This document shows, piece by piece, positions 22,379 to 32,666 of a DNA stretch of 64,000 bases. The first letter of the stretch is position 1. Every line of letters starts with the position of its first letter. The notes beneath the pieces are model-generated. The model ran no database searches. It saw only the letters and a program-made list of their open reading frames with translations, and was not told the DNA's origin. The DNA is from Thermosphaera sp. (GTDB lineage Archaea; Thermoproteota; Thermoprotei_A; Sulfolobales; Desulfurococcaceae), in assembly GCA_038827615.1 (NCBI GenBank), contig JAWBNK010000001.1:558290-622289 (forward strand), written 5' to 3'. A program made the position numbers and the translations under genes.

Positions 22379-22966
22379 CTATTTCTCCATGGGATAAACG
22401 AACCATCTATCCTTCTTTTCCAGCACGTAAGTAGTGTGCTTGAGAACATCCTGTGAAACGTATATGATGCTTGCTCTAAGGACGTTCTTCTCGATATCCA
22501 TAACTATTAATGATGGAGGGCCTGACTCTAGCTCACCACTCCACGCGCCTGTCGCTGAACCAGGATTTATTAATAGAACTTTCCCCGTCACATCGGTCCT
22601 AATGAAGGATAAGTGAGTATGACCTGAAGCAAGTAAATCTACTCCTAATCCTAATCCTATTCTCGCTAATCCATCGATATTTCCTCTCGGATATATTCCA
22701 TGTCCGTGGTACACACCAAGAGTGACTTCTTCTATGACTATTTTCTCGTGTAATGGAAGGGGAAGATAATCCATGTTTCCTCTGACTAATACTACTCTCT
22801 CTCCTAGGTTTTCAACCCATGATCTAACCTCGGGAGAAGTTAGATCACCCGTAAATATGACGTAATCCCAGTATTCTCTTTCGATGAGATTGGAGAGATT
22901 TTGCGGAACTCTGCGAGCTCTGTCTGGTATATGAGTGTCACCGAGGACCAAAACCCTGTTCAACAT
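22379..22966 (-). CDS. YfcE/MJ0936-type metallophosphoesterase
   Basis: A 195-residue cytosolic phosphodiesterase fold with the compact motif set: LGDTHIPD, FTGDLTS, VRGNMDYLP, VYHGHGIYP and SGHTHLSF. Relatives from Methanocaldococcus and E. coli hydrolyse model phosphodiesters with divalent metals; the cellular substrate is unknown. Start ATG 22966 or TTG 22963; GGTGG immediately upstream favours either closely spaced. Its ribosome-binding region abuts the D box of a predicted C/D box sRNA on the same strand, so leader and sRNA may share transcripts. Confidence 0.88.
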   Translation of the reverse strand: MLNRVLVLGDTHIPDRARRVPQNLSNLIEREYWDYVIFTGDLTSPEVRSWVENLGERVVLVRGNMDYLPLPLHEKIVIEEVTLGVYHGHGIYPRGNIDGLARIGLGLGVDLLASGHTHLSFIRTDVTGKVLLINPGSATGAWSGELESGPPSLIVMDIEKNVLRASIIYVSQDVLKHTTYVLEKKDRWFVYPMEK

Positions 22967-22971
22967 ACCAC

Positions 22972-23026
22972 CATCAGCTGGGTATGTTTAAATCACCGAT
23001 CTGTCCGGGAGTAACTCATCATCGAT
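22972..23026 (-). ncRNA. Predicted C/D box guide sRNA (copy A)
   Basis: On the minus strand: C box ATGATGA (23022-23016), 12-nt guide GTTACTCCCGGA, D' box CAGA (23003-23000), 3-nt spacer, C' box GTGATTT (22996-22990), 12-nt guide AAACATACCCAG, D box CTGA (22977-22974). The spacing is that of archaeal C/D box sRNAs, which bind L7Ae, Nop5 and fibrillarin to direct 2'-O-methylation five bases upstream of D or D'. By that rule the targets would read TCCGGGAGTAAC (fifth base G) and CTGGGTATGTTT (fifth base G). A TATA-like stretch at 23051-23062, inside the 3' end of the kinase-like gene, would start transcription near 23028. Targets were not identified. Confidence 0.75.
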
Positions 23027-23047: not shown

Positions 23048-23782
23048 CTAATAATATTTTATGTGGGCTTCTTTCCAGCTATTTAGAAATGCTTTGTTAA
23101 AGGGATATGGAATTAATATTAAGGTTATTGTTTTGAGACTTGGCTTTTCTAAAGCATCTATTATTTCACTGAGTCTAATCGCGCCCCCGGATGCGTAACC
23201 CTCAGCTAGCGCTTTGAAAATTTTTTTCAGATCCTTTCCACCATTCATGATCTGTTCTAATCCAAAGAAGACGATCGTTGATCCTAAGACAATCAAATCC
23301 CAAACATAATGTTGAATATTATCTGTTCTTATAGCTTGCTCCGAGTCTATTAAATAAATGGAGTCTCTGGATAAAATAAAATTCGAGATCTTACTGTCTC
23401 CTAGAGCCCACCCTTCTCCATGAAGCTGATTAAGGTGTGCTCCAAGCTTTAGAAATTCATCTTCATTATTAATTTTGGGGAAGGGTAATCCATCAACGTA
23501 TTCCCTGACCATTGAAAGGTTTAAGAAGTCGACAAGGTATAAAACTGGTTTTTTAAAGCTCTTGGATCCATCTTTATAGAAACATACTTCCCTCTCTAGT
23601 CTCTTGAAAGGTTGAAATGCAAACGGATATATGTTAATTGAGAGATTTGAGGCGTTAATCAACAGCCATTTTAAAATTCCTGTCTCTTTTTTATATTTTT
23701 TTACCACAAGTTTCTTGCCCTGGACCTCATGGATTTCTATTTGACTCGAGAATTCGTCGAGATATTCTAATATGCTTAGCAA
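23048..23782 (-). CDS. RIO/Bud32-like small protein-kinase-fold protein
   Basis: A 244-residue protein that resembles lipopolysaccharide-kinase/Bud32/RIO-type small kinases. Seen: candidate ATP-anchoring Lys in GKKLVVKKYKK (~23-31), hinge-like VREYVDGLP, catalytic-loop-like LHGEGWALGDSKISNFIL (Asp, Lys and Asn in the order DxKxxN, ~133) and metal-binding LIDSEQA (~147) in place of DFG. A kinase acting on protein or small molecule is inferred; the loop lacks the usual His. The C-terminal ~60 residues are helical and unplaced. The start TTG overlaps the end region of the DUF211 gene (6 bases apart), so the two are probably cotranscribed. Confidence 0.6.
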   Translation of the reverse strand: MLSILEYLDEFSSQIEIHEVQGKKLVVKKYKKETGILKWLLINASNLSINIYPFAFQPFKRLEREVCFYKDGSKSFKKPVLYLVDFLNLSMVREYVDGLPFPKINNEDEFLKLGAHLNQLHGEGWALGDSKISNFILSRDSIYLIDSEQAIRTDNIQHYVWDLIVLGSTIVFFGLEQIMNGGKDLKKIFKALAEGYASGGAIRLSEIIDALEKPSLKTITLILIPYPFNKAFLNSWKEAHIKYY

Positions 23783-24073: not shown

Positions 24074-24137
24074 CTTGCACACCCCTTATAATCATTGTGG
24101 AACGAAAGTTATTAAACATGATTTGCCCAGGGGAGTC

Positions 24138-24178
24138 CCTCCTGCTCATTCTCCCTCAAGCGAGGGCGTTGCAGGAGG
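24138..24178. ncRNA. GC-rich nested hairpin, possible structured RNA
   Basis: In an AT-rich gap, an outer perfect 8-bp inverted repeat (CCTCCTGC at 24138-24145 with GCAGGAGG at 24171-24178) encloses an inner perfect 5-bp hairpin (CCCTC at 24153-24157, GAGGG at 24162-24166, loop AAGC). The two stems are separated by a 7/4 internal loop. High GC in an AT-rich hyperthermophile gap often marks stable RNA. TATA-like elements exist on both sides (agttattaaac near 24107 for plus; gcttatatacc near 24210 for minus), so the strand is undecided. It lacks recognisable C/D boxes and a convincing ACA tail. Confidence 0.4.
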
Positions 24179-24367
24179 CATATCATAGTATTACTTAGGT
24201 TTAACAGGTATATAAGCTAAGAATTTGAGAAAATTAAAAATAATTTTTTTGTATATTGAAGAAATTATTCATTGTTGCTTATAAATTTTATCCAAGTGGA
24301 TAAAATGTGGGAAAGAAGAGGTTATTTATTAGCTTTGAGAGAGAAAATTGAATAAAGGGGTTGATCA

Positions 24368-32611: not shown

Positions 32612-32666
32612 CTTCAGCAACGCCAACCGTCTTCACGAATCTGACACGGGTTCGCTCATCATCTAA
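32612..32666 (-). ncRNA. Predicted C/D box guide sRNA (copy B)
   Basis: On the minus strand: C box ATGATGA (32662-32656), 12-nt guide GCGAACCCGTGT, D' box CAGA (32643-32640), 3-nt spacer, C' box GTGAAGA (32636-32630), 12-nt guide CGGTTGGCGTTG, D box CTGA (32617-32614). Spacing is identical, base for base, to the element at 22972-23026, with unrelated guides. By the N+5 rule the targets would read ACACGGGTTCGC (fifth base G) and CAACGCCAACCG (fifth base G). A TATA-like taatttttaatc (minus, ~32698-32687) puts transcription start near 32666, four bases before the C box. Targets were not identified. Confidence 0.82.

Follow-up and report, generated by a model that had tools for sequence, protein, structure and literature searches.

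The window analyzed here is a 64,000-nucleotide stretch of a Thermosphaera sp. contig. On its minus strand, a gene for a kinase-like protein is followed by a gene for a YfcE-family phosphodiesterase, and a small element lies between them. Read directly on the minus strand from position 23022 to 22974, this element is ATGATGA-GTTACTCCCGGA-CAGA-TCG-GTGATTT-AAACATACCCAG-CTGA (Table 1), the arrangement of boxes and guides that had been described in the original prediction of a C/D box guide sRNA at this site. The C (RUGAUGA), D' (CUGA-like), C', and D (CUGA) boxes are all present and in the correct order, and the RNA has the 50–60 nt size of such sRNAs. Both guides are 12 nt long, where 10–12 nt is expected, and lie directly upstream of D' or D, their ends being set by boxes that are conserved in relatives. 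A degenerate C' box, such as this element has, is common. The span 22972–23026 comprises the C-to-D core plus a short terminal stem, which is weak, as UGGU opposite AUCG gives one G-C, one A-U, and two G-U pairs. The fold energy of the sRNA stretch was not unusual (z of -0.67), which is normal for this class of RNA.

Table 1. Features at and around the C/D box element, in window coordinates.
Feature	Position	Strand	Basis or remark
YfcE-family phosphodiesterase gene, flank	22379..22966	-	TIGR00040, E 3.4e-31; Pfam Metallophos_2
Kinase-like gene, flank	23048..23782	-	Bud32-like, below all cut-offs
C/D box dual-guide sRNA core, C box to D box (putative)	22974..23022, 49 nt	-	Direct reading; relatives conserved exactly over this span
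C box ATGATGA	23016..23022	-	TGA of the box invariant in 12 homologs
D' guide GTTACTCCCGGA, 12 nt	23004..23015	-	Pairing with own 23S rRNA
D' box CAGA	23000..23003	-	GA invariant in relatives
K-loop spacer TCG, 3 nt	22997..22999	-	Longer, often hairpin-forming spacer in many relatives
C' box GTGATTT, degenerate	22990..22996	-	TGA invariant in relatives
D guide AAACATACCCAG, 12 nt	22978..22989	-	Pairing with own 23S rRNA
D box CTGA	22974..22977	-	Direct reading and relatives
Weak terminal stem, 3' half (inferred)	22970..22973	-	Direct reading
Weak terminal stem, 5' half (inferred)	23023..23026	-	Direct reading
Second C/D element	32614..32662	-	ATGATGA GCGAACCCGTGT CAGA TTC GTGAAGA CGGTTGGCGTTG CTGA
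Match to Rfam PyrR205 (Pyrobaculum H/ACA-like sRNA)	24122..24180	-	35.1 bits, gathering score 35.6

Conservation of the Element in the Order

The strict layout of boxes and guides occurs twice in the window, and neither it nor the version used in the original prediction was found in any of 150 simulated 64-kb sequences of the same dinucleotide content, in which even a much looser layout occurred only 0.03 times per 64 kb. The earlier argument that two equally spaced elements would be unlikely to arise by chance is thus upheld, as is the observation that one geometry is used twice, although the 3-nt spacing between D' and C' is not general, the spacer in relatives being 3 to about 27 nt long. 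Many relatives have a longer spacer, often with CC at its start and GG at its end directly before C', and such a CC...GG spacer would be expected to convert the K-loop to a stem. For the guides of the second element, the pairing runs found in the genome's own rRNA were at most 8 bp.

DNA comparison with 40 relatives gave matches in several genera and families over query positions 37–87, that is, over the C-to-D core, and no match outside that stretch. An alignment of 12 homologs shows no variation in the TGA triplets of the C and C' boxes, in TACTCCCGG, in the GA of D', or in the D-guide core AAC..ACC, and it is in the guides that the element is most conserved. A sequence model built from the homologs matched 114 of the 197 genomes of the order, mostly once per genome, including members of the Desulfurococcaceae, the Pyrodictiaceae, and other families; about 83 of these matches, as counted by hand from the rows of the search output, span both guides. 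A scan of named genomes added 20 further stretches, labelled Desulfurococcales, Desulfurococcaceae, Pyrodictiaceae, Staphylothermus, Thermogladius, and Thermoproteota, together with one Thermofilales MAG. It had been proposed that absence of the boxes from close relatives with conserved flanking genes would tell against a guide RNA; instead, both congeners and one other genus retain boxes and guides between the same two flanking genes. The possibility that the boxes, which are short and partly degenerate, are chance motifs in an AT-rich intergenic gap has in our estimation practically no probability left, given the simulation, the conservation, and the paired targets with compensatory changes described below, and it is already refuted by the conservation of the element at non-homologous genomic positions.

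Comparison with Known Guide RNAs

No Rfam family matched at its gathering score. At relaxed thresholds, the archaeal C/D families sR28, sR10, and sR7 matched exactly positions 22972–23026. The closest resemblance in a guide is to sR10 of Pyrococcus (RF01149), whose D' guide (ACUACUCCCGG) is almost the same as ours and would likewise have CCGGGAGUA in 23S rRNA as its target. The sR10 match is full-length, but its scores, 23.7 bits for the window and 34.2 bits for the congener G002, are below the gathering score of 45, so the element is not a member by score, and the D guide of the model, ACCACCUACCGG, differs. In some relatives the best Rfam score was obtained with sR7 (RF01310; 35.4 bits, gathering score 37); that score is carried by the boxes, whereas both guides differ.

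The dual-guide sRNA sets of the Crenarchaeota Ignicoccus, Sulfolobus, and Pyrobaculum described by Dennis et al. (2015, PMC4644070) share with our element the box layout, the 12-nt guides, the placing of two targets within 100 nt of 23S rRNA in the helix 68–71 hotspot, and the overlap with a neighboring ORF end, although the main text of that paper mentions neither the present locus nor this combination of guides. The paper lists helices 68, 69, and 71 as hotspots of methylation, and it counts about half of the archaeal C/D sRNAs as double guides whose targets lie within 100 nt.

Predicted Targets in 23S rRNA

The D' guide forms 11 contiguous Watson-Crick base pairs with positions 2067–2077 (CCGGGAGUAAC) of the organism's own 23S rRNA (L022), where at least 9 consecutive pairs with rRNA or tRNA across the N+5 nucleotide are expected of a guide. 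Only 25 of 20,000 random 12-mers of the window reached at least 11 bp. By the N+5 rule, the predicted methylation site is G2070. We take the paired stretch to be helix 69 (Escherichia coli 1904–1914) and G2070 to be E. coli G1907, which lies in helix 69 beside the intersubunit contact A1912. The E. coli numbering was obtained with 23S anchors (U1911, U1939, and C1962) and a gap-free offset of 163.

The D guide pairs less perfectly. Its best match in the organism's own 23S rRNA is at 2109–2119, CCGGGUAAGUU, within the GGGUAAGUU stretch, with mismatches at guide positions -8 (A:A) and -2 (A:C), while the pairs from -3 to -7 around the predicted site, G2113, are intact. This site is 43 nt from G2070, and we take the target stretch to be E. 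coli 1946–1956 and the site itself to be G1950. Taken alone in this genus, the D guide has no Watson-Crick run longer than 6 nt in rRNA; a strict 9-bp rule rejects it here, and the relaxed double-guide rule, with one mismatch, accepts it. Other families show longer pairing, and in six other genomes (G005, G020, G041, G050, G060, and G082) the D-guide duplex at this 23S site is 9 to 12 bp long. Methylation of G2113 is less certain in this genus, because the duplex is mismatched three positions from the predicted site. The A:A mismatch, at window position 22982, persists in several genera, and the adjacent position -7 covaries with the target. Candidate tRNA targets for the D guide were rejected, since near matches in the loci of 30 of the 45 tRNA genes fell outside the tRNA genes themselves.

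Covariation and Re-pairing of Guides

We obtained the 23S rRNA sequences of other genomes and compared guides and targets pair by pair. In two genomes of genus g6 (G007 and G158), an A-to-G change in the D' target is matched by a T-to-C change at the guide position opposite it. In three genomes of genera g5 and g14 (G018, G015, and G023), the D target has changed from A to G (GGGUGAGUU) and the guide from T to C at position -7. The A-to-G change at the D' target recurs in family f11, where the guide is ATTACCCTCGG or ATTACCCCCGAG. Three A-to-G changes in the targets have been answered by T-to-C changes in the guides, and these compensatory changes are the strongest evidence for the assigned targets. 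Together with the conservation in relatives, they bear out the identification of the element as a C/D box guide sRNA.

The covariation at position -7 also bears on whether both guides are in use. The RNA may act as a single guide in this genus, the D' guide methylating G2070 while a decayed D guide only anchors or chaperones its 23S segment. We regard this as unlikely, though still deserving of some weight, as the -8 mismatch was present in all three g1 genomes read and is also retained in the related genera g5 and g14. In those two genera, however, position -7 changes together with the target despite the mismatch, so pairing at the D site appears to be still under selection. The unbroken pairing from -3 to -7 around the predicted site also speaks against a decayed guide, and one mismatch is tolerated in published double-guide predictions (PMC4644070).

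In family f11, the two guides are split onto separate sRNAs (L134–L138). There the guide to GGGUAAGUU shares its RNA with a guide to GAGGUCCC/CGUGGUCCC, whereas the partner of the helix 69 guide is AAGGCATTTG, the complement of CAAAUGCCUU. A genome of genus g10 (G011, L125) also combines the helix 69 guide with AAGGCATTTG. All targets of the re-paired guides fall inside about 110 nt of 23S rRNA. Re-pairing of guides of this kind has already been described (PMC4644070).

During the comparison of the targets, we noted that some 23S rRNA genes appear to have insertions, probably introns, inside the guide targets (L146 in G001, L140 in G124, and L147 in G019). G001 and G019 would carry one immediately ahead of AGUUCCGG, and GGGGGUAA would be interrupted in G124 and G019. 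If these insertions are introns, full pairing of the guides there would be possible only after splicing.

Gene Neighborhood and a Possible Leader Role

The start codon of the phosphodiesterase gene (ATG at 22966) is 7 nt downstream of the D box, and the stop of the kinase-like ORF is 25 nt upstream of the C box, in agreement with the earlier statement that the element overlaps the leader of the first gene and lies about 20 bases from the second. The order kinase, sRNA, and phosphodiesterase is shared by both congeners, G001 and G002, and by genus g6. In genera g5, g15, and g16 the kinase-like gene still adjoins the sRNA and the phosphodiesterase gene is more distant, and in g8 and other families the sRNA is found at other genomic places. 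A candidate independent promoter, an AT-rich upstream stretch that overlaps the end of the kinase gene, is without conservation. According to PMC7994747, most archaeal C/D sRNA genes are without a promoter of their own, overlap or abut ORFs, and are processed from longer transcripts, and a 5' ORF overlap is found in about 7% of them; the location of the present sRNA is therefore unusual only in degree.

The closeness of the D box to the start codon, in an arrangement kept in genera g1 and g6, and the finding that Sulfolobus L7Ae represses its own mRNA via a K-turn in the leader (PMC5539422) raise the possibility of a cis-regulatory leader, in which the boxes would form an L7Ae-binding K-turn controlling translation of the phosphodiesterase, besides or instead of guiding. 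We consider this improbable, as most families keep the sRNA without an adjoining phosphodiesterase gene, the guides are the most conserved part of the element even though a plain K-turn needs none, and the 5' overlap is one shared by other archaeal C/D sRNA genes, at the frequency given above. As the D box lies 7 nt from the start codon here, and at a comparable distance in a second genus, we also propose, as a decidedly slim prospect, a second role in cis, in which assembly of the RNP on the nascent leader would trade production of the sRNA against translation of the phosphodiesterase. Modification of the ribosome would then be linked to phosphodiesterase expression. A start-codon hairpin formed by the inverted repeat AACATACC/GGTATGTT, which runs from the D guide to the phosphodiesterase start, was considered and rejected; the complement is absent in the congeners, the fold is no better than that of shuffled sequences, and we attribute the repeat to chance.

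The kinase-like gene adjoins the sRNA in several genera. Its product scored 47.6 bits against a Bud32 cut-off of 125 bits and had no Pfam match, and it possibly represents a separate kinase family. Elsewhere in the window, the PyrR205-like match is situated directly upstream of a DUF211 gene, and there is a weaker match at the corresponding place in G124 (L152 2091–2125). If the match is true, H/ACA and C/D guides would stand side by side in one cluster.

Proposed Mechanism and Significance

Overall, we interpret the element as the gene of an archaeal C/D box dual-guide sRNA for 2'-O-methylation with predicted targets G2070 and G2113, a reading to which we assign a probability of about 0.93. 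The RNA would probably be cut and trimmed from a longer transcript that extends through the kinase-like gene to that of the phosphodiesterase, its release taking place as the RNP forms. Based on what is known of the class, the C and D boxes would form a K-turn and the C' and D' boxes a K-loop, both of which would bind L7Ae, and Nop5 and fibrillarin, the latter encoded in this genome, would join the L7Ae-bound RNA. During methylation, the nascent 23S rRNA would be held by the two guides at two neighboring segments. With the D' guide on the 5' strand of helix 69, fibrillarin would 2'-O-methylate G2070, and with the D guide 43 nt downstream, around GGGUAAGUU, G2113 would probably be methylated.

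The class of guide RNAs to which the element is assigned is well known, and its function would otherwise be ordinary housekeeping. The element adds a well-supported dual guide to the methylation hotspot around helix 69 and the intersubunit bridge, and it gives exact predicted methylation sites. In addition, the guides of its relatives have been re-paired and track changes in the rRNA, which makes this family of sRNAs useful for the study of guide-target co-evolution.
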